Part shown: positions 6,283 through 16,828 of the stretch, in pieces
How positions within the stretch are numbered: the stretch's first letter is position 1
Layout of the letters: the number at the start of each line of letters is the position of its first letter
NCBI GenBank assembly: GCA_900319625.1
Contig: ONPD01000005.1
Span: 124,001-188,000 of the forward strand
Length of the DNA stretch: 64,000 bases
Origin: an uncultured Treponema sp.
GTDB taxonomy: Bacteria; Spirochaetota; Spirochaetia; Treponematales; Treponemataceae
Direction of reading: 5' to 3'
Translations under genes and position numbers: made by a program
The notes under the pieces: model-generated
The model's input: the letters and a program-made list of their open reading frames with translations, nothing else
Told to the model about the DNA's origin: nothing
The model's database searches: none

Positions 6283-6876
6283 CTAATTCAGGGTAAATTT
6301 AACAGGATAGCGATACTTAACAGCAACATTTTTTCCGTTGGCATTGGCAGGAATACAGGAAAGTCCTTGAAGTGCGCTAACGGCAGCCTTTGCAAATCCG
6401 TAACCTGGATCCTTGAGAACCTTAATTTTTTTGATTAATCCGGCTGAGTCTATGTAGAGTTCAAGATAAACTACCGCTTCGATTCCCTGTTTTAAAGCCA
6501 TAGGCGGATAAACAATTCTTGCAAGAACTTCCCTGGACGGAATTACCGGAACGGCAGAGATCTTATGCTGGGGAAGATATTCAATTTCCTCTTTTTCTTC
6601 CACCACCTCTTCCTTTGTTTCTACAATTTTTTCTGCGGCTTTCGGCTGATTTGAAACCTTAACTACAGGCTTTTCAAGAGGAAGCGGAGGGGGAGGCAGA
6701 ACTTCCTGAATATCGACAAGCTTAAAAACTTCGGCTTCACGAAAATCTACGGTTTCGGGCTCATTATGATTAGAAAAATTCAATAAATAAATTGCCGCGA
6801 CATGCAGAAAAAGCACAAAAACAAATAAAGCCGGCCGCGCATACATCGAAAATCTTGCTATTTTTTCATCACTCAT
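6283..6876 (-). CDS. TonB family energy-transducing protein
   Basis: A 197-residue TonB-like protein. One membrane anchor is at residues 11-30 (PALFVFVLFLHVAAIYLL), a proline-rich segment at about 57-68 (EVLPPPPLPLEKP), a Glu/Lys-rich linker, and a C-terminal TonB domain (about 110-197) with YPPMALKQGIEAVVYLELYID and YRYPVKFTLN. It should span the periplasm and pass ExbB/ExbD energy to the receptor encoded upstream in the same operon. It overlaps the second exbD gene by 4 bases and is the last gene of the operon. TonB systems are absent from some well-studied treponemes such as T. pallidum, so its presence here is informative. Confidence 0.9.
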   Translation of the reverse strand: MSDEKIARFSMYARPALFVFVLFLHVAAIYLLNFSNHNEPETVDFREAEVFKLVDIQEVLPPPPLPLEKPVVKVSNQPKAAEKIVETKEEVVEEKEEIEYLPQHKISAVPVIPSREVLARIVYPPMALKQGIEAVVYLELYIDSAGLIKKIKVLKDPGYGFAKAAVSALQGLSCIPANANGKNVAVKYRYPVKFTLN

Positions 6877-7286
6877 TTTAGACCTCTATTTTCTTTTACA
6901 ACAAAGCTGACTACGCGGTGCTGAAGGCTCTGCAAAACGCTGACAACTGAGTTCACGTATTTGTAGGGAGTTTCCTTATCCGCAATCAGGTGGATTCTCA
7001 CAGAAGGATTTTCTGCAATTGCCGCTACAATCGCACGTTCCACTTCCACGCCCTCCAGCTGAACTCCGTCGGCTGAAATAATTCCGTTTTTTTGAATCCA
7101 GATTTCAAAATTGCTGTCAGCCTGAGTTCGTTCCAAAACCGTGCTTTCCGAATAATTGATTTTTTCCTCATAGCGCTGGTTCATAAGCGAAATGAGCATG
7201 ATAAAAATCAAAAGCAAAAATCCTATGTCCGACATGGATGAGGTTGAGATTGCAGGATTTCTGCGCTTCTTTTTTATGTTTACCAT
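6873..7286 (-). CDS. ExbD/TolR-type biopolymer transport protein (second copy)
   Basis: A 137-residue protein with the ExbD layout: a short cytoplasmic N-terminus, one membrane helix (about residues 15-38, SSMSDIGFLLLIFIMLISLM) carrying the essential membrane aspartate in MSDIGFL (about D21), and a periplasmic domain with the VRIHLIADKETPYKYV pattern. It should form the proton channel with ExbB. It follows the other exbD by 10 bases and overlaps tonB by 4 bases. Having two different exbD genes next to one exbB, as here, suggests a hetero-oligomeric ExbD. Confidence 0.9.
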   Translation of the reverse strand: MVNIKKKRRNPAISTSSMSDIGFLLLIFIMLISLMNQRYEEKINYSESTVLERTQADSNFEIWIQKNGIISADGVQLEGVEVERAIVAAIAENPSVRIHLIADKETPYKYVNSVVSVLQSLQHRVVSFVVKENRGLK

Positions 7287-7296
7287 TTTCTGCCCC

Positions 7297-7713
7297 TTAT
7301 TGCCCGCCCGTACTGTCTTCCATACGGAAGGAAAAATTTTCGACTTTAAGCTGTCTGATTGTAGAAATTACGTCCACAACCCTCTGGTAGGGAGTTTCAG
7401 GATTGATGGTCAGAAGAAAGGTCATGTTAGGCCAGCTTTTCAGCTTTTTTTGAATCAGCTCTGAAAGTTCATCCGGCTCAATATGATTTCCTTCCATTAT
7501 TATTTCCCCTGCCCGGCTCAGACTGCATTTCAAAATATCTTCATTGTGAACTATCAGAGGCTTTTCTTTGGAAGGAAGATTGAGCAGAAAGCCCTTGTTC
7601 ACGTTAAAGCCCGCAATCACAATAAAAAATATAATCAGCAGGAAGGAGAGGTCGTTCAGAGAACCTGAGCTTCCTGCATCCTCTACATTATGTCTTACAA
7701 AACGCTTAATCAT
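7297..7713 (-). CDS. ExbD/TolR-type biopolymer transport protein (first copy)
   Basis: A 138-residue ExbD with one membrane helix at about residues 18-40 (SLNDLSFLLIIFFIVIAGF), the conserved aspartate in LNDLSFLL, and a periplasmic domain with MTFLLTINPETPYQRVVDVI. It is clearly related to, but different from, the ExbD encoded just downstream. It begins 28 bases after exbB. Function is inferred from family and operon context. Confidence 0.9.
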   Translation of the reverse strand: MIKRFVRHNVEDAGSSGSLNDLSFLLIIFFIVIAGFNVNKGFLLNLPSKEKPLIVHNEDILKCSLSRAGEIIMEGNHIEPDELSELIQKKLKSWPNMTFLLTINPETPYQRVVDVISTIRQLKVENFSFRMEDSTGGQ

Positions 7714-7741
7714 TTTGTCCGCCTTACCTGTAAAATTCGCC

Positions 7742-8368
7742 TTAGGAAGCCAGCAATTCCGGAACTAAATCATTAATCGCCTTAGACGCTTCGGCAGCAA
7801 AACGGTCTACCTTCTGAATCAGAAGATTGTAGGCAACAAGGGCGATGATTGCGATAATCAGGCCGAAAACTGTTGTGATAAGTGCTTCATAGATGCCGCC
7901 CGCAACAAGCTGGGCGTTTACGTCGGTGGCTTCGGCAATTGACTGGAAGGCTCCAATCATGCCGGAAACGGTTCCCAGAAAGCCTGTAAGGGGCGCAAGG
8001 GAAGAAAGGGCTGTAAGATAATTAAAGCCGTTTTCCATTCTGCGAAGTCTTTCCTGAGCCTCGGCTTCGGCAGCGCGTTCCATGCGGTTTTCACCGTATT
8101 TTGCATTCTGCAGGAGGGCCAGCAGAATTGTAGCTATAGTTTGCTTGTGGGTAAGTGACGCAAGAAATCCTTCCGCGCCCTCCTTATTTCCATCCCCCAG
8201 GAAAGCCTTCACCTTGTCGCGCACAGGGCTAACCTTGCAGTCGTGCCAGGAAAGATAAATAATTCTTTCTATTACAATAGCGATTGTCGCAACCGAAAAG
8301 GCCAGAAGCACCCACATAAAAGGGCCGCCAAGCTTAAAAAGTTCAATCAAACTGAATCCGTTTTCCAT
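7742..8368 (-). CDS. ExbB/TolQ/MotA-family proton channel protein
   Basis: A 208-residue protein with three membrane segments: about residues 12-35 (FMWVLLAFSVATIAIVIERII), 118-140 and 160-185. The family core LTALSSLAPLTGFLGTVSGM and the last helix TTVFGLIIAIIALVAYN are present. It is the stator-like component that couples proton flow through ExbD to TonB. An AAGGAG ribosome binding site sits before the ATG. The gene lies between the TonB-dependent receptor and the exbD pair, which argues for ExbB rather than MotA or TolQ. Confidence 0.92.
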   Translation of the reverse strand: MENGFSLIELFKLGGPFMWVLLAFSVATIAIVIERIIYLSWHDCKVSPVRDKVKAFLGDGNKEGAEGFLASLTHKQTIATILLALLQNAKYGENRMERAAEAEAQERLRRMENGFNYLTALSSLAPLTGFLGTVSGMIGAFQSIAEATDVNAQLVAGGIYEALITTVFGLIIAIIALVAYNLLIQKVDRFAAEASKAINDLVPELLAS

Positions 8369-8390
8369 AAAAATCTCCTTTTGTTAATTA

Positions 8391-8415
8391 GACACCCCAG
8401 ACGGGCCGGAGTGTC
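8391..8415 (-). other. intercistronic stem-loop between receptor gene and exbB
   Basis: On the minus strand GACACTCC (8408-8415) can pair with GGGGTGTC (8391-8398), 8 pairs including one G-U. It is not followed by a T run, so it looks more like an RNA-processing or stabilising stem than a terminator. Confidence 0.45.
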
Positions 8416-8423
8416 ACTTTTAA

Positions 8424-10940
8424 TTAAAATTTCACCTTCATTCCGAAAGAAGGAATTGGAATTCCAAGGTTGAAATCAACTGATTCTGGGCTACTGCTCA
8501 TTTCGCCTGTGTACTTGTTGAAAGACTTGTCTCCTTTTGGTGAATAAAGGTTTACAAAAATATCCTGAAGGGCAAAATACCATTCCCAGCTTGTCTTTCC
8601 CCCGTTTGTTTTCCATTCGCGGGCAATGCGAAGATCCACAGGGCAGGAAATATTTGTGCGCAGGGTGTCGCTGTAAACCGAGCTTCTTGTGTAGCGCTGG
8701 ATAATAGTGCCGTCATCCATTTTTGCGGCATAGCAGGTAACATCGCCGGTTTTATCTTTTGGAGCGCCGGTTGCAAGTGTTCCTTTTACTGTGAAAGTCC
8801 AGCCCTTTCCGAAATGCCAGTTACTTACAAGGTTTAGGGTGTGAAAGCGGTGGTAAGACGGGAAATACCATTCATCCAAAGGACTTTTTGAAGTAGACTG
8901 TGCAAATTCATCATTTTTAATTCCGGCAGGATTTTTCAGCTTGGAATAAACGAATGAATAAGAAAGGTAGCCGTCCCAGGCAGAACCGATTTTCTTTTCA
9001 ATCATAGAATCAATTCCGAATACATAGCCCTTGCCGTTACTTTTTACAACCATTTCTACATCATTGTAATTGCTGGAAGAATCCGTTTTCTGATATGAGT
9101 AGATTCTTGAAAGATAGTATTTGTAGTAAGTTTCAAGCTTGAATTTCCAGCCGCCATAAAGACTTGCATCTGCACCAAGTACGCCAAGAAGGGCGCGGTT
9201 TGTCTGCATGTCAAAATCCTTAAGTCCCATTTCTTTTGTAAAAATCATAGTTTCGCGCGGAATTGAAACAAAAAGTCCTGAGCCAGCTGTAAAAGAAGCT
9301 TTTTCAAGAAGGCCTGTGTTTCTCCACGGGGTTATGGTGATTGTTGCACGAGGGCAAAGGTCCGGCACAAAGTTTACGCTGTAATTTTTATCGAAATTCT
9401 GAAGGCTTACAAATTCTCCCCTAAGACCGATTTCCGACTGAAAAAAGTCATTGTCGTTTCCGAATTTCCAGGAAGCAAAAAGGGCGCTGTCAAAAATACA
9501 GTTGCCGGCTGTCGAAGTAGAAAAATTAAGATTCTTGAACAGATAACCTTCCGGAGTTTCTACGTCTGTAAAGCCGCTGAAGGTATTTTTTGTTTTTGCA
9601 GACTGGAAAATTTCTTCGCTGCCCAGACAAAGATGATTTTTTGGCGAAAGTTCAAGCTCACTTTCAAAACGGCCTGTTACAAGGTGACTTTTTATATCCT
9701 CAGTATTATTAATTCCTATGTCGTTAATGGAGTAAGAGGCTCCCTTTGTAACGCCGGGATAAACCGAACCATATTTATCAACAAACTCATCGTTATATTT
9801 TACCCTGCCATTTTCCTTCTGGCTTAATTCCAGATCCTCAAACATTCCGTTGTAGGAAAGCAGCCAGTGAAGCTGAAGATTTTCGTTTGCAAGGTATTTT
9901 AAATTTATGCCGACCAAAGTCTGATAAATATCATAGTCCATTTTTGTACGGCTTTTGATATTTTTCTTTTCTTCCTCCTGGTCAAGAGAAAGTCCATCGC
10001 TTCCAAAAAAGCCGAGAAGAGAAACATCAAGTTCCGGAGACGGATTAAAATTGGCCTTTAGGAAAAAGTCGCGGATGTAGGGGGCACGTTCAATCATTTT
10101 TATTTCATCTACGCCCAGAGCTTTTGCTCCCCATACAACCAGATCCAGATAAGAAAGGTGAGTTCCTATAAGCATTCCGCCAACCTTTTTTCCGAAAGGA
10201 ATCTGAAAAAAGGCGTCCGCACAGGTTGTGGAAGTTCCTATGTTTGCATGGAATTTTTCGAAGTCAGGTTTAAGGGTTGTTGCTTCAAGAATTCCTGAAG
10301 AAGCGCGGCCATATTTTGCAGAAAAAACGCCGTTAGAAAGGGTGATTGAATCTACCATTGCAGGATTAAAAATCGAAACGCCGCCGCCCCAGTGATAAGG
10401 AAATAGAAGATACATTCCGTCCAGAAGACAGCCAAGCTCGCGGGGTTCTCCACCGCGCACAGAAGGCTCGCTTCCCCAGGCTCCGCTGTAAGAAACACCT
10501 GGCAGAGTTCGGACAGAAGCCATGCAGTCTTCGACAATTCCAATGTTTGCGGTGGTTTTCATTTCTTCTTTTGTCATTACTGTAGAAACGCCGGTCTTTT
10601 CTTCAGCTTTTTCAGGAGCGGAAGGGTTTACGACAAGCTCTTTGCCTTCGATTACGCTGGAAAGTGAAAGTTCAACTTCAATTTCTTCGTCAGTTCCATT
10701 GAAATTTACAGAAGTCTGCTTATAGCCGGGAAAAGAAACTGTGATTGTACCTTCGCTTACAGAATCCGGCAGATGAAGAAGGGCTTTTCCATCCTCATCT
10801 GCTTCGACAGTATCTGTTCCGTAAGAGATTTTTGCACCTTCAAGTGGAAAATCCAGATCTTTATCTACAACAGAAACTCTTAAATCGCCTGCAAAAGAAA
10901 AGGCAGGCAAAAACAAAACTAAAAATAATAATTTTTTCAT
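8424..10940 (-). CDS. TonB-dependent outer membrane receptor with N-terminal carboxypeptidase-like domain
   Basis: An 838-residue protein. A signal peptide (MKKLLFLVLFLPAFSFA) is followed by a CarboxypepD_reg/transthyretin-like beta domain (about 20-100; DLRVSVVDKDLDFPLEGAKI), a plug domain (about 115-220; MTKEEMKTTANIGIVEDCMAS, SVRGGEPRELGCLLDGMYL) and a large beta-barrel ending in aromatic GMKVKF, consistent with BAM-dependent insertion. The domain before the plug is typical of receptors for larger or complex ligands, but the substrate cannot be named. It lies 65 bases after the caspase-like gene and 55 before exbB, so receptor and energy complex are co-encoded. The start has a GAGG site that falls beside or within an inverted repeat. 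Confidence 0.9.
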   Translation of the reverse strand: MKKLLFLVLFLPAFSFAGDLRVSVVDKDLDFPLEGAKISYGTDTVEADEDGKALLHLPDSVSEGTITVSFPGYKQTSVNFNGTDEEIEVELSLSSVIEGKELVVNPSAPEKAEEKTGVSTVMTKEEMKTTANIGIVEDCMASVRTLPGVSYSGAWGSEPSVRGGEPRELGCLLDGMYLLFPYHWGGGVSIFNPAMVDSITLSNGVFSAKYGRASSGILEATTLKPDFEKFHANIGTSTTCADAFFQIPFGKKVGGMLIGTHLSYLDLVVWGAKALGVDEIKMIERAPYIRDFFLKANFNPSPELDVSLLGFFGSDGLSLDQEEEKKNIKSRTKMDYDIYQTLVGINLKYLANENLQLHWLLSYNGMFEDLELSQKENGRVKYNDEFVDKYGSVYPGVTKGASYSINDIGINNTEDIKSHLVTGRFESELELSPKNHLCLGSEEIFQSAKTKNTFSGFTDVETPEGYLFKNLNFSTSTAGNCIFDSALFASWKFGNDNDFFQSEIGLRGEFVSLQNFDKNYSVNFVPDLCPRATITITPWRNTGLLEKASFTAGSGLFVSIPRETMIFTKEMGLKDFDMQTNRALLGVLGADASLYGGWKFKLETYYKYYLSRIYSYQKTDSSSNYNDVEMVVKSNGKGYVFGIDSMIEKKIGSAWDGYLSYSFVYSKLKNPAGIKNDEFAQSTSKSPLDEWYFPSYHRFHTLNLVSNWHFGKGWTFTVKGTLATGAPKDKTGDVTCYAAKMDDGTIIQRYTRSSVYSDTLRTNISCPVDLRIAREWKTNGGKTSWEWYFALQDIFVNLYSPKGDKSFNKYTGEMSSSPESVDFNLGIPIPSFGMKVKF

Positions 10941-10941
10941 T

Positions 10942-10985
10942 TTTTGAAATCCTCGTTATCTTTTAGACACCCAGGGATTTCAAAA
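10942..10985 (-). promoter_or_regulatory. inverted repeat overlapping the receptor's ribosome binding site
   Basis: TTTTGAAATCC (10942-10952) and its exact reverse complement GGATTTCAAAA (10975-10985) form a perfect 11-base inverted repeat with a 22-base loop. On the minus strand the 3' arm contains the end of the GAGGAT ribosome binding site and runs to the ATG at 10940. Folding would partly hide the site. Confidence 0.6.
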
Positions 10986-11005
10986 CTGTTACTAAAGATT
11001 AAAAA

Positions 11006-13309
11006 TTATTTGAAGCAGTATTTTACTCCCAGGTCAAATTCAGGGAATAATCTGAAATCATCGGTAATTTTGATTATCATGTTCTTTTCAAACTTTTTGT
11101 AAACATTGCTGGATTCAAGATAATCCATAGTGAAGGAAAGACCTGCAAAAATATTCAGCTGCTTGACAGGTGAGAAACCAACAGAGCCTCTGATGCTTGG
11201 AATAAAAAGCTTAAAGAAATTCACGCTGAAGGAAACATCACTGTCTGTTCCGTCATCATCATCTGCAATTCTGTAAGCCTCAAAATCAAAATTAAATTTA
11301 TCAACCCTTGCTCTGGTTCCGAAGCCGTAAAGGAAATTGAATTTTTTGCTGCCGTCATAGTTATTGAAAAGGTAGCCGCCGCTTAAAGCAAAGCCTACAA
11401 TTGCGTAAAATTTTTCTTTTCCGGATCTAAGCGTAGCATGAATGTTTCTGTTTGAGGTAAAGGACATACCAAGCTCAAGAATTCCGTCATTGCAAAGATT
11501 TATAAGACCAATCTGAAGACCGTCGACATTTTTCGCAACGTTTACAATACCAAGCTGAAGGCCCTTTACATCATCAGCTTTATTAACTATGGCTGTAATT
11601 TGAGTACCTTTTACGTCCTTTGCATTGTTAATAATTGCGGAAATCTGCGCACCTTTTACATCTTTTGCATTATTTAAAACTGCAGAAATTTGACCGCCAG
11701 ACACATCATTTGCTGTATTAGAAATTCCGGCAATCTGGAAACCCTGGAGATTTCTTGCAGCATTCGTAATGCCAGAAATTTGAGCACCCTTTACATCCTC
11801 TGCTCGATTATATAAAGCAGAAAGCTGTTTTCCGCCAAGAATATTATCAGCTTTGTTAAAAATACTACTTATTTGAAGACCTCTGAAATCATCAGCCTTA
11901 TTAAAAATTGCAGCCATTTGAAGACCATTTAATTCGTGAACTGAGTTGAAAACGCCTGCAACCTGAACGCCGCTAACATAGCCGGCTTCGTTTACACCGA
12001 TTCCAAACATAATTCCATTTACTTTGTAAGTATTTGAATGGAAAAGTGAAAGGGAAAGAGGAGTTTTTATTTTTTTATTAGAAGAACGGGAAAATTCATT
12101 CATCACAAAAGAAAACTCAACCGGAACAAATTTTATGTCTTCCGGCAAGGTACCTGAATCAAAAGCTTCTTTATCATCAGAATCTGATTCATTCTCAGCG
12201 TCGTCTGCCCCGTCCGCATCCCTATCCCCGCGCACGCGGTTTGAAGCTGTCGCAACCAGGTTAAAGGAGTTTTCCGAAAGCTCGTAAATGCGGCCCGAAG
12301 TTACGGTAAAAGTTCCCTGCAAAGTCGCGGTATCTTCTATAATTGTTGCTGAATAATCACCTTTTTCAAGCGCAAGAAAAACCTGACTTCCGCTCACCTT
12401 GTTGATTTCCGAAACAAGCTTTCCGTTTTTATAGCGGATTAAAACCCGCCCCTGAAGCTTTTCCGAAAGATGTACGATGCAGTCTGAACTTGAAATATCC
12501 GACAGAACAAGGTCGCCCGAACCTACAAGTGTAATATTGTAGTTTGGATGCTGGGGCCCCGCGCTGGAATTTTCAGTTTTAGAAAGAGTCTCGCTGAAGG
12601 CGTAGGAATAAAGCTCGTTCAGGGTAACTTTTTTATCGCCGGAAGAGTCGGCAGCTCCGCGCAGGCCTGTGAGCATGGCATTTGTAAAAAAGGAAGAGCC
12701 GATTTCATCAGATTCCTGAGAAAATTCCTGAGATGAACTTGAAGAAAGATAGGCATGTCCCTTTACTACCGTAGAATCGTCGAGCAAAAAGGGCTTTTTC
12801 CTCTGACCGCCCTTTGTTCTGATAAAGTTTCCCGAATAGCAGGAATCAAGAATTACAACGTGAACATCACTTGGAACACTGGAAATTGCGGCTTTCAGCT
12901 CTGAATAATCATAGCTTGTGCGACCCAAAAGCAGGGCATTTTCATCCGAATGACCGGAATAATAAAAAATGAACTCCGAGCGTTTGGAATGCTGGCGGTT
13001 CTGACTTATCATTTCAGAAACCATCTGCAAAGCTTCGTCCAAATCGGCCTTTGAAGGATCAAGAAGAAGCAGCCCGTTGGAAGTCGGGATTCCGCCGATT
13101 TCAGCCATCGTTTTTTGAAAGGAAATGGCATCGCTTCCAGCATACAAAAGCCGCTGGTTGTTTTTTCCGCCCACGTTGGAACCGACATAAATTGCATAGC
13201 GTTCAACGCCAAGCTCTGAATTGCCGTTACTTTCTGCCGCAAAAAGTGCGCCTGAAGGCAATAAAAAGGCTGTAAAAATCAGAAGAATTAAAAATCTGAA
13301 TTTTTTCAT
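11006..13309 (-). CDS. secreted caspase-like (peptidase C14) protein with tandem surface repeats
   Basis: A 767-residue exported protein. A signal peptide covers residues 1-24. A caspase-fold domain follows (about 35-265) with the catalytic dyad visible as H120 (FYYSGHSDE) and C157 (VVILDSCYSG). A Ser-rich linker and an acidic segment near 355-375 (RDADGADDAENESDSDD) separate it from about eleven copies of a roughly 15-residue repeat of pattern xGxQIsaIxNxAxDv (about 430-600). This resembles the LA_2272-type surface repeats of Leptospira as I recall them. The last 150 residues are beta-rich and could form a small outer membrane barrel. Substrate and role are unknown. It lies 15 bases after the candidate sigma-regulator gene and upstream of the receptor gene. 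A GGAGAG site supports the ATG. Confidence 0.85.
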   Translation of the reverse strand: MKKFRFLILLIFTAFLLPSGALFAAESNGNSELGVERYAIYVGSNVGGKNNQRLLYAGSDAISFQKTMAEIGGIPTSNGLLLLDPSKADLDEALQMVSEMISQNRQHSKRSEFIFYYSGHSDENALLLGRTSYDYSELKAAISSVPSDVHVVILDSCYSGNFIRTKGGQRKKPFLLDDSTVVKGHAYLSSSSSQEFSQESDEIGSSFFTNAMLTGLRGAADSSGDKKVTLNELYSYAFSETLSKTENSSAGPQHPNYNITLVGSGDLVLSDISSSDCIVHLSEKLQGRVLIRYKNGKLVSEINKVSGSQVFLALEKGDYSATIIEDTATLQGTFTVTSGRIYELSENSFNLVATASNRVRGDRDADGADDAENESDSDDKEAFDSGTLPEDIKFVPVEFSFVMNEFSRSSNKKIKTPLSLSLFHSNTYKVNGIMFGIGVNEAGYVSGVQVAGVFNSVHELNGLQMAAIFNKADDFRGLQISSIFNKADNILGGKQLSALYNRAEDVKGAQISGITNAARNLQGFQIAGISNTANDVSGGQISAVLNNAKDVKGAQISAIINNAKDVKGTQITAIVNKADDVKGLQLGIVNVAKNVDGLQIGLINLCNDGILELGMSFTSNRNIHATLRSGKEKFYAIVGFALSGGYLFNNYDGSKKFNFLYGFGTRARVDKFNFDFEAYRIADDDDGTDSDVSFSVNFFKLFIPSIRGSVGFSPVKQLNIFAGLSFTMDYLESSNVYKKFEKNMIIKITDDFRLFPEFDLGVKYCFK

Positions 13310-13324
13310 TTTGATTTCTCTCCA

Positions 13325-14116
13325 TTATTCTTTTTTCAAGACAAAAATTGAGCCGTCTGCATCTTTAGGGAGGTAGGAACCCTTTTTCAAAAACTCAATA
13401 TCAATATTTTCTTTGCTTAATTTTTCAATTCCATTTAAATCAAAAGCTTTTTTGGATGCTACAAAAATAAAACATTCATAGTCCGGAGCATCGTCCAGAG
13501 AATATGAAAAGGAAAGGGGAACTTCCCCGCCGGTTTTCTGCAGCTTTTCGGCTTTCCAGGAGTTTTCAGGGAAGTGGCGGGTAATGTTTTTGTTTCCATC
13601 CACGCTGAAAATTACGCCGTAAGAATAAGTTCCCGGAAGGTAGGTGATTTGAATAAGGTCGTTTTCGCGGGCAAGAGAGCCGTTCTTAAGAAGAACTGCC
13701 TCACTACCATTCTGGCGGTACAGTCTGATTTGATGATGATTTTCACCTTTCAGACGGATATTTTCTTCTGAGACAGGACTGGCAGAAAGACCGCTCATGC
13801 TTTTATAGCTTCTCAGGGTAAGGGGAATCAAAAATGCCATAGCAAGTGCGGCCGCAGCTGAATATCTTAAAAGCGAAAGTTTTACGTGGTAAGGTGATTT
13901 TTTTGAAGATGCCGCAAGCTCATTTTTCTGCATCATTACTTTTTTGATTATTTCGCCTTTCATTGCTTCTGCGGGATAAGCTGAAAGAATCTCTTCATTT
14001 GATTTTCTAAGCTCAGCCAAAGCCGCCTGCAATTCTTCTTTTCCGTATTTTGTGTAGAAGTCTTTTTCGTTTTTTTCGCCGTTCAGAATCTCTTCTAATA
14101 ATAACTGTGGAATCAT
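13325..14116 (-). CDS. single-span membrane protein, candidate regulator of the adjacent sigma factor
   Basis: A 263-residue protein. Residues 1-80 are charged and helical, one membrane span is at about 86-104 (LRYSAAAALAMAFLIPLTL), and the rest is outside. The outer part has the pattern SLARENDLIQITY...YGVIFSVDGNKNITRHFPE, which resembles ActD-like/DUF4384 modules as I recall them. The start overlaps the sigma stop by 4 bases (ATGA), the usual arrangement for an anti-sigma factor, and the topology fits. No zinc anti-sigma HxxxCxxC motif is present, so the anti-sigma role is inferred from position and topology only. Confidence 0.65.
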   Translation of the reverse strand: MIPQLLLEEILNGEKNEKDFYTKYGKEELQAALAELRKSNEEILSAYPAEAMKGEIIKKVMMQKNELAASSKKSPYHVKLSLLRYSAAAALAMAFLIPLTLRSYKSMSGLSASPVSEENIRLKGENHHQIRLYRQNGSEAVLLKNGSLARENDLIQITYLPGTYSYGVIFSVDGNKNITRHFPENSWKAEKLQKTGGEVPLSFSYSLDDAPDYECFIFVASKKAFDLNGIEKLSKENIDIEFLKKGSYLPKDADGSIFVLKKE

Positions 14117-14616
14117 ATCTGCCCCCTGCCTGCCAATTTGATGGAAAACTTTTTCAGTTCCGAAAGCCTTTTTCTTACCCCGGAAACCGACATTCCAACA
14201 AGTTCTGCCGTTTCTTCAAGGGTGTGGGCGTCAACAAAGTGAAGGGTCGCAATAAGACAATCCTTCGAATCACGCTTAGAAAAAATGCTTTCCAGAATGA
14301 TTCCAGCTTCTATTTTTTCACGTTCAAGCTCAGAAAAATCATCGGCCATAGTTTCTTCTATCACAGAAAAATCAGGGCCGGCTCTAAGCTTGTCAGAACG
14401 GATTTTGTTCAGGCAAACACGGGTCGCCGTCACATAAAAAAGGCTGGAACAGATTTCTTTGATTTTGTAACTGCTGTCAAGAATACGGACAAAAACATCC
14501 TGCATGGCGTCCAGAGCCTTATCCTCATCTTTGAGAATTGCCCTGCAGCGCCTTAAAACCATGGGGCCGAACTTCTGATACAAATCATTAAAATCATCTG
14601 GTTTCAAAGTTTTCAT
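14113..14616 (-). CDS. ECF-type sigma-70 family RNA polymerase sigma factor
   Basis: A 167-residue protein with sigma region 2 at about residues 10-70 (YQKFGPMVLRRCRAILKD, DAMQDVFVRIL) and a region 4 helix-turn-helix at about 125-160 (HTLEETAELVGMSVSGVRKR). Size and two-domain layout fit an extracytoplasmic-function sigma factor. It is the first gene of the operon and probably directs transcription of some or all of it, and perhaps of other loci. Translation start is supported by GGAG ten bases upstream. Confidence 0.9.
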   Translation of the reverse strand: MKTLKPDDFNDLYQKFGPMVLRRCRAILKDEDKALDAMQDVFVRILDSSYKIKEICSSLFYVTATRVCLNKIRSDKLRAGPDFSVIEETMADDFSELEREKIEAGIILESIFSKRDSKDCLIATLHFVDAHTLEETAELVGMSVSGVRKRLSELKKFSIKLAGRGQI

Positions 14617-14636
14617 TCTGGTATAACTCCGTCCAT

Positions 14637-14642
14637 ATTATA
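14637..14642 (-). promoter_or_regulatory. -10 hexamer of the sigma / caspase-like / TonB operon
   Basis: A perfect TATAAT on the minus strand lies 20 bases before the sigma factor start at 14616. The predicted first base is about 14630, giving a short leader that still contains GGAG. No good TTGACA-like -35 is seen at 16-18 bases, so the promoter may need an activator or the ECF sigma factor. Confidence 0.5.
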
Positions 14643-14673
14643 AGACACGTAAAACCGGAAAATGTGTTACTTT

Positions 14674-16462: not shown

Positions 16463-16828
16463 CTAATTCCGAATTTTCAAATTCTGCTTTATTTTTGTAA
16501 GCATTTTTCGTATTTCAGTTATTAAATCAAATGTCTTTTTTAAATCATTTGATTCCATATATCCAATCCGTTCACACAATAATAATTGCGTTTCTAATTC
16601 AGCAATTGAACCTCGCGCAACAGAAAGAAAATAACTATATTCTTTTCTTGAATCTCTTGCATTTCCTTCGGCAATATTAGATGGAATAGAGACTGCAGAT
16701 CGACGTATCTGATCAGAAAGAGCATAAAACTCTTCTTTTGGAAGTTTTTTTACAAGTTGATAAACTTCAGAAACTAAATCCATTGATTTCTTCCAGACAA
16801 TCAACTCCTTATAATCTAAGACTTCCAT
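16463..16828 (-). CDS. four-helix-bundle protein of the S23 / 23S rRNA intervening-sequence family
   Basis: A 121-residue, all-helical protein with the family pattern: YKELIVWKKSMDLVSEVYQL, then DQIRRSAVSIPSNIAEGNAR, then YSYFLSVARGSIAELETQLL. Relatives are encoded in 23S rRNA intervening sequences of Leptospira and as orphan genes in many bacteria; the DGR accessory protein Avd has a similar fold. The function of the orphan forms is not established. Here it is inserted between purE and purM, is AT-rich relative to both, and is enclosed by inverted heptamer arms, one of which supplies its translation start region (AGGG about 9 bases upstream). Confidence 0.9.
   Translation of the reverse strand: MEVLDYKELIVWKKSMDLVSEVYQLVKKLPKEEFYALSDQIRRSAVSIPSNIAEGNARDSRKEYSYFLSVARGSIAELETQLLLCERIGYMESNDLKKTFDLITEIRKMLTKIKQNLKIRN

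Follow-up and report, generated by a model that had tools for sequence, protein, structure and literature searches.

A conserved triad of sigma factor, anti-sigma factor and caspase in Treponema, and a motif shared by its anti-sigma stalk and caspase

Genes of the locus and conservation of the triad

The 64,000-nucleotide stretch of DNA analysed here (the window) comes from an uncultured Treponema species, represented by a draft genome of 2.56 Mb that is 83.75% complete. It contains a run of eight open reading frames (ORFs), all on the minus strand between positions 6283 and 14616, which code for a sigma factor of the extracytoplasmic function (ECF) type, a membrane-bound anti-sigma factor, an exported caspase, a TonB-dependent receptor, ExbB, two copies of ExbD, and TonB. 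Our main concern is the first three genes, a conserved triad, and a short motif shared by the anti-sigma factor and the caspase, which suggests that one may be a substrate of the other. An original prediction, made from the DNA sequence, had proposed eight packed genes on one strand, with a sigma factor gene that overlaps the gene of a membrane partner. The ORFs and domain matches above curated cut-offs bear this out: the sigma and anti-sigma genes overlap by 4 bases, as do exbD2 and tonB, and the other intergenic gaps, in gene order from anti-sigma/caspase through exbD1/exbD2, measure 15, 65, 55, 28, and 10 bases. Among the matches listed, named relatives of the window proteins are mostly from Treponema. 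The genes of the triad and the catalytic codons of the caspase are located as follows.

14113..14616, minus strand: ECF sigma factor, 167 residues; Sigma70_r2 and TIGR02937 above cut-off, region 4 below
13325..14116, minus strand: single-pass anti-sigma factor, 263 residues; AlphaFold2 model, zf-HC2 in two distant homologues
11006..13309, minus strand: exported caspase, 767 residues; Peptidase_C14, LA_2272_repeat, model and fold matches
12950..12952, minus strand: codon of catalytic H120, kept in 68/68 clusters
12839..12841, minus strand: codon of catalytic C157, kept in 68/68 clusters

In the sigma factor, Sigma70_r4_2 scores 22.3 bits against a cut-off of 25.7, and the presence of regions 2 and 4 in the sequence places the protein among the ECF sigma factors. 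In the anti-sigma factor of the window, a Pfam scan gave no family above its cut-off. The alignment-based AlphaFold2 model of this protein (mean predicted local distance difference test score, pLDDT, 85.2) has helices at residues 4–11, 17–24, 26–46, and 49–72, a membrane helix at 78–105, a stalk at 106–124 with pLDDT below 50, and a DUF4384-like beta domain C-terminal to the stalk. The match to DUF4384 (PF14326) at residues 152–221 reaches 13.3 bits against a cut-off of 27, and the relatives also remain below it; precomputed annotation assigns DUF4384 to the homologues P0110, P0303, and P0338. Two distant homologues (L169 and L173) have zf-HC2 above the Pfam cut-off at the N-terminal position that the helices occupy in the window protein. 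A class I anti-sigma domain has four helices ahead of the membrane helix (PMC7406223). Based on the four-helix layout and the zf-HC2 homologues, the membrane partner is identified, from modelled structure and homology, as an anti-sigma factor that is predicted to bind and inhibit the sigma factor.

The caspase has a signal peptide-like start, a caspase domain at approximately residues 34–273, a small beta domain, a linker, and a barrel-like repeat domain at 397–765, the latter matching the LA_2272 surface repeats with 48.6 bits (NCBIfam cut-off 25). Its closest relatives by sequence in the PDB are metacaspases. Conservation was counted over clusters at 50% identity, 68 for the caspase and 98 for the anti-sigma factor, where 2 of 100 clusters had no anchor and were left out. 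From the caspase alignment of the GTDB scan described below, 3 of 80 sequences without SGHS were dropped beforehand (L260, L283, and L291), and the L251 caspase, which ends at a contig end, has a gap at positions 360/361. The catalytic pair H120/C157 is located as had been proposed for the window protein and is present in every cluster, and the S1 aspartates, aligned in the profile with metacaspase positions, are nearly as constant (D155 in 68/68 and D60 in 67/68). With its His/Cys dyad in a caspase fold and its acidic S1 residues, the sequence agrees with a C14B metacaspase or orthocaspase. Metacaspases cut after Arg or Lys (PMC4357240), and because the dyad and the S1 aspartates are conserved, cleavage after Arg or Lys is predicted. 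An Arg-Gly-Asp adhesion motif in the window caspase (R360-G361-D362) was considered and rejected, since D362 is found in only 19 of the 68 clusters. In two distant triads (L169:5151–7526 and L173:4991–7360), located beside zinc-finger anti-sigma factors, the caspase carries a C-terminal part with CsgG-like and Kelch-repeat regions. Three relatives (L083, L084, and L085) have repeated CTGACCTTATAT-like units between the anti-sigma and caspase genes.

In the following, family and phylum refer to the host lineage, Treponemataceae and Spirochaetota, and the GTDB set derives from a scan across GTDB with the caspase alignment A5, which gave 367 relatives, of which 80 were kept. The anti-sigma factor was found in 55 of the 195 family genomes searched (6/20 genera) and in 59 of 392 phylum genomes (38/166 genera). 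The genes of sigma factor, anti-sigma factor, and caspase lie next to each other on the same strand in 52/55 family loci and 37/40 loci elsewhere in the phylum, the exceptions being two loci at contig ends (L047 and L146), one with stops (L055), and L076, L166, and L178. Among the 80 GTDB loci, the full triad is adjacent in 70, and anti-sigma factor and caspase in 76. These gene-order counts indicate linkage beyond chance. Judged by record titles, triads outside the spirochaetes occur in Aminicenantes (L222), Myxococcota (L225), FCPU426 (L237), Goldiibacteriota (L249), Fermentibacteria (L256), Gemmatimonadetes (L260), Fibrobacteria (L283), and Acidobacteria (L291), and named species with a triad are Anaeromyxobacter terrae (L290, Myxococcota) and Breznakiella homolactica (L223, Spirochaetes). 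A Pyxidicoccus locus (L271) has anti-sigma factor and caspase with no recognised adjacent sigma factor, and an Archangium locus (L273) has no triad. The triad family extends over no fewer than nine phylum-level names, and its conserved core is the ECF sigma factor, the single-pass anti-sigma factor with a DUF4384-like domain, and the exported caspase. One family locus (L055, genome G114), in which anti-sigma factor and caspase are interrupted by stops and part of the exbD-tonB end is left, is a decaying copy.

The R-x-[RK]-G motif in stalk, loop and linker

A short motif of the form R-x-[RK]-G is present at one site in the anti-sigma factor and at two in the caspase.

13745..13756, minus strand: stalk motif R121-L-K123-G124 of the anti-sigma factor, predicted cut K/G; R-x-K-G in 88/98 clusters, KG in 94
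12809..12820, minus strand: loop motif R164-T-K166-G167 of the caspase, predicted self-cut K/G; R-x-K-G in 62/68 clusters, KG in 68/68
12227..12238, minus strand: linker motif R358-V-R360-G361 of the caspase, predicted self-cut R/G; position 360 is R in 63 clusters, K in 4, and H in 1, and G361 is kept in 68/68

The loop motif follows the catalytic cysteine directly, in a segment modelled with pLDDT below 50, and is preceded by T or I in 54 of the 68 clusters (T in 40). The linker motif, which is [RK]-G in 67/68 clusters, lies ahead of the C-terminal domain in a stretch (354–388) that also has pLDDT below 50. The anti-sigma stalk is otherwise variable, and the R-x-K-G columns stay conserved in the family, then in the phylum, and then across phyla: the 76 anti-sigma factors of the GTDB scan have R-x-K-G in 70 cases, KG in 5, and neither in 1. 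Protein searches gave a similar picture, with R-x-K-G in 104 and KG in 10 of 115 anchored sequences among the 120 listed by a first anti-sigma search, R-x-K-G in 106 and KG in 13 of 120 listed by a second, and the loop R-x-K-G in 118 of 120 listed by a caspase search. In the 98 clusters, the stalk motif is 9–34 residues from the membrane helix and 32–62 residues ahead of the S-x-D strand, and the variable distances on both sides indicate that it floats between folded parts. The four clusters lacking KG in the stalk are L275, L176 (with K-R-G instead), and L178 and L295 (odd or short frames). Stalk and linker resemble each other also further upstream. Outside the family, an acidic residue occupies P6 at a frequency of 0.60 in the stalk and 0.70 in the linker, and Thr occupies P4 at 0.44 and 0.51, respectively; the window's own proteins show neither feature.

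In 12 scanned window proteins, R-x-[RK]-G occurs at the stalk, loop, and linker sites only, and the background in other ORFs is 0.213 R-x-K-G per 1000 residues. Membrane zf-HC2 anti-sigma factors of the phylum, used as controls, have KG in the stalk in 0/20 cases, and control DUF4384 ORFs have R-x-K-G anywhere in 3/30; in assembling these controls, L328 (a 63-residue frame) was excluded and one of 29 could not be located. Among control caspases the loop R-x-K-G occurs in 0/10, 20 of the initial 30 having no dyad recognisable by the search pattern. The simplest reading of the shared motif is that R-x-K-G is the recognition sequence of the caspase. On balance, we lean towards a mechanism where the caspase would cut the periplasmic stalk of the anti-sigma factor at an R-x-K/G site matching the one in its own loop, with release of the sigma factor as the eventual result. 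The shared motif, kept across phyla, gives strong though indirect backing to one part of the original prediction, in which cleavage of the membrane regulator was among the roles suggested for the exported protease.

Several observations weigh against this mechanism. The stalk and caspase loops all have low pLDDT in the models, and the window caspase has I rather than T before the loop Arg. The predicted P1 residue is mostly Arg in the linker and Lys in the stalk. Of eight control zf-HC2 proteins lacking a clear membrane helix, one has R-x-K-G and five have KG in the segment inspected, and KG is found near the cysteine in 2/10 control caspases. The caspase of L275 has the linker motif next to an anti-sigma factor with no stalk motif, at a locus with no recognised adjacent sigma gene, and within the family the anti-sigma factor was not found in 140 of 195 genomes. 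Finally, K166-G167-G168 is nearly invariant (G168 in 66/68), which also fits a structural or pseudosubstrate role. The latter leads to the main rival explanation, in which the stalk would bind uncut in the caspase pocket as a pseudosubstrate, holding protease and anti-sigma factor inhibited until a signal separates them. It draws on the same shared-motif evidence and has a precedent in the gingipain prodomain, which puts an Arg into the S1 pocket (PMC4357240). The [RK]-G of the linker, ahead of the C-terminal domain, is nevertheless better read as a processing site, and proteolysis is a common way of inactivating anti-sigma factors, so that we regard an uncut complex as unlikely and favour cleavage of the stalk.

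Promoter motif and TonB genes

A bipartite sequence, GTRACA-N16-GTGTCT, precedes three of the eight genes at 21–26 bases from the start codon.

14643..14670, minus strand: promoter-like GTAACA-N16-GTGTCT, exact match, 26 bases before the sigma gene
10965..10992, minus strand: promoter-like GTAACA-N16-GTGTCT, exact match, 24 bases before the receptor gene
8390..8417, minus strand: promoter-like GTGACA-N16-GTGTCT, exact match, 21 bases before exbB

The window has no further exact match, and a search that tolerates two mismatches gives 5 sites in all, where 4.8 are expected. The exact form (with a final W) occurs 7 times in the own genome (reversed control, 0) and 53 times in 14 genomes (reversed control, 11); when one mismatch is allowed the signal is drowned (26 vs 23). 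A relaxed form precedes the sigma gene in 42/53 family loci, 14/39 loci of the rest of the phylum, and 28/72 GTDB-scan loci, compared with 2/298, 4/240, and 1/462 control genes, respectively. The same form precedes the caspase in 2/54, 0/38, and 0/79 loci, and within the family it is found before the receptor in 13/23 and before exbB in 9/23. Because the motif stands before the sigma gene and hardly before the caspase, transcription of the triad likely begins at the sigma promoter, and the sequences suggest that the sigma factor likely autoregulates its triad. The absence of the relaxed motif before the sigma gene in 11/53, 25/39, and 44/72 loci (some starts are possibly miscalled) counts against such a regulatory loop. 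The position of the caspase downstream of the sigma promoter, with practically no motif of its own, would also suit a caspase that is a mere effector of the regulon, remodelling or degrading, for example, envelope or outside proteins, while the anti-sigma factor does the sensing and is degraded by other means. The shared motif would then have some other cause, and since its common occurrence in stalk, loop, and linker is left unexplained, such an effector role is, in our view, unlikely compared with cleavage of the stalk.

Apart from the three sites in the operon, the seven exact sites of the own genome comprise one before the gene of a small exported protein (L096/L214), one 54 bases upstream of a TraX-like membrane protein gene (L086, C6:105219), and two within genes (L087 and L091). 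The small protein (224 residues, signal peptide-like start) is encoded outside the window (L214, C9:36500–43000), with the motif at locus positions 1665–1692, 33 bases before the ATG, and has close homologues in genomes G104 (L215) and G103 (L216) that are also preceded by the motif. In all, the motif precedes small proteins of 218–231 residues with signal peptide-like starts in 5/14 genomes (L214, L215, L216, L207, and L210), among them the window's own. It also precedes two genes that appear to code for lipoproteins, at 94 bases (L212) and 24 bases (L213). At another locus (L042:7513–10518), a gene for what looks like an M16-like peptidase of 1001 residues, with its own promoter motif, is inserted between caspase and receptor. 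Regulation of a distant receptor in genomes G136 and G159 (L211 and L209) was set aside, as the contigs that carry the caspase break off at this point, which leaves the genes possibly adjacent.

The remaining genes of the run form the TonB block.

8424..10940, minus strand: TonB-dependent receptor, 838 residues; Plug above cut-off, weak CarboxypepD_reg
7742..8368, minus strand: ExbB, 208 residues; MotA_ExbB above cut-off
7297..7713, minus strand: first ExbD copy, 138 residues; ExbD above cut-off
6873..7286, minus strand: second ExbD copy, 137 residues; ExbD above cut-off
6283..6876, minus strand: TonB, 197 residues; TonB_C above cut-off

Among loci with 6 kb of sequence behind the caspase, ExbB or TonB is encoded there in 23/36 of the family, 1/28 of the rest of the phylum (L176, ExbB-ExbD), and 0/13 of the GTDB set. 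The 67 GTDB loci with less than 6 kb have TonB-type genes in 2 cases (L249, Goldiibacteriota; L262, Deltaproteobacteria), and divergent upstream ExbB/ExbD-like genes are found at L238 and L290. The TonB block is a recurrent addition and not part of the core. Since the promoter motif stands separately before receptor and exbB, both look like members of the regulon, and the eight genes need not be a single transcript. For this reason, and because the block is missing behind the caspase in most triads beyond the family, the idea that all eight genes are conserved together as one operon was rejected. Linkage in relatives, the check proposed for the entire run, thus holds for the triad and fails for the TonB block.

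The presence of sigma, anti-sigma, and receptor genes together also invites comparison with the FecA-FecR-FecI system, in which an ECF sigma factor, a membrane anti-sigma factor, and a TonB-dependent receptor are combined, and where the receptor would sense a ligand and trigger the anti-sigma factor. Unlike that system, the receptor of the window shows no STN signalling domain in Pfam at E 0.1, only weak CarboxypepD_reg matches, in agreement with the earlier remark that it has no obvious signalling domain; the anti-sigma factor likewise has no FecR domain at the same threshold, and it is the caspase that is conserved instead. As the receptor is not present in most triads outside the family, classical surface signalling is an explanation to which we give almost no weight. 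Another role for the receptor would be to export or otherwise serve the caspase, for which there is a precedent in the Oar-dependent secretion of PopC in Myxococcus with ExbB/ExbD/TonB (PMC6434023), and which agrees with the gene linkage in the window and at the 23 family loci. The caspase has, however, a barrel-like C-terminal domain of its own, and beyond the family TonB genes are missing behind the caspase in the majority of triads, which makes this role very improbable. For the latter reason, and in view of the motifs at receptor and exbB, action on or delivery by the uptake system, the other part of the proposal made for the protease, is not needed.

Elsewhere in the window (16463–16828), a four-helix-bundle-like protein of 121 residues is encoded between two pur-like genes, away from any ribosomal RNA seen. 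We take it to be of the 23S intervening-sequence kind, and its flanking genes to be purM and purE.

Proposed signalling mechanism and known systems

Gene order, shared motif, conserved residues, and promoter sites, as read from the sequences, can be combined in a scheme for which we infer the cleavage and the order of cuts, the periplasmic side, the activating signal, and the later proteases. An envelope signal, perhaps sensed by the variable C-terminal domain (barrel-like in the window), would activate the caspase, which would process itself at K166/G167 and leave its C-terminal anchor by a cut at R360/G361. The caspase would then make the first cut in the anti-sigma stalk, and further proteases would complete degradation of the anti-sigma factor. 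The freed sigma factor would drive transcription of the operon that encodes it and of the genes for the TonB-dependent receptor, the ExbB-ExbD-TonB block, and the small exported proteins. A broader and more tentative view is that the triad may be an old, phylum-spanning envelope device, where a tethered caspase activates itself and a copy of its loop in the stalk passes the activation on into transcription, TonB and small envelope proteins having been added lineage by lineage.

To our knowledge, substrates are known for few of the caspase homologues in bacteria. For the triad, predictions from sequence extend to the substrate, its cut site, the self-processing sites, and the transcriptional output, and if they are true, bacterial caspases would gain a signalling role apart from cell death. 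In the open-licence literature searched, no description was found of the triad with its anti-sigma factor, stalk motif, or promoter. The closest in terms of gene order are metacaspase operons with sigma-70 factors noted in a 2012 survey for Myxococcus, Anaeromyxobacter, Haliangium, Sorangium, Ralstonia, and Fibrobacter (PMC3501461), where a caspase homologue and a sigma factor share an operon as they do here, including in the Anaeromyxobacter triad (L290). In contrast to the present analysis, the relevant section of that survey names no anti-sigma factor, motif, promoter, or mechanism, and its operons are candidates for membership in the same family. ECF sigma factors have also been noted near EACC2-caspase systems (PMC8195603), and CHAT proteins with ECF54, a group described as having no anti-sigma factor (PMC8999054). 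The neighbourhood of a caspase-fold protein and an ECF sigma gene is common to these systems and the triad, and a stalk motif does not figure in the descriptions concerned. DUF4384 has been reported in caspase homologues (PMC6426788, PMC7475262).

With respect to mechanism, the orthocaspase MaOC1 is reported to cleave a neighbouring antitoxin (PMC7935541). As predicted for the triad, a bacterial caspase homologue acts against an inhibitor encoded next to it, but the target of MaOC1 is an antitoxin and not an anti-sigma factor, and has no membrane link. In the DegS-RseA-RpoE pathway (PMC10028731), a membrane anti-sigma factor receives its first cut on the periplasmic side, as predicted here. 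DegS is a serine protease, whereas the triad encodes a caspase beside the anti-sigma factor, and if our proposal is true, the caspase would take the place of DegS-type proteases in envelope signalling. The nearest worked-out analogue is the CRISPR-associated CASP pathway (Craspase), in which the caspase-like Csx29 cleaves the sigma inhibitor Csx30 (PMC10028731). There, and by prediction in the triad, a caspase-like protease cleaves an inhibitor of a sigma factor, and in both systems the promoters at the sigma factor's own locus contain its motif. Csx29, however, is a cytoplasmic TPR-CHAT protease activated by RNA, whereas the triad combines a Peptidase_C14 protein that has a signal peptide-like start with a membrane anti-sigma factor. 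Pfam gives no CHAT or TPR match in the window caspase, and PADLOC no match for sigma factor, anti-sigma factor, or caspase. If cleavage of the stalk takes place as proposed, the triad would represent a non-CRISPR counterpart of the Csx29-Csx30-sigma pathway.

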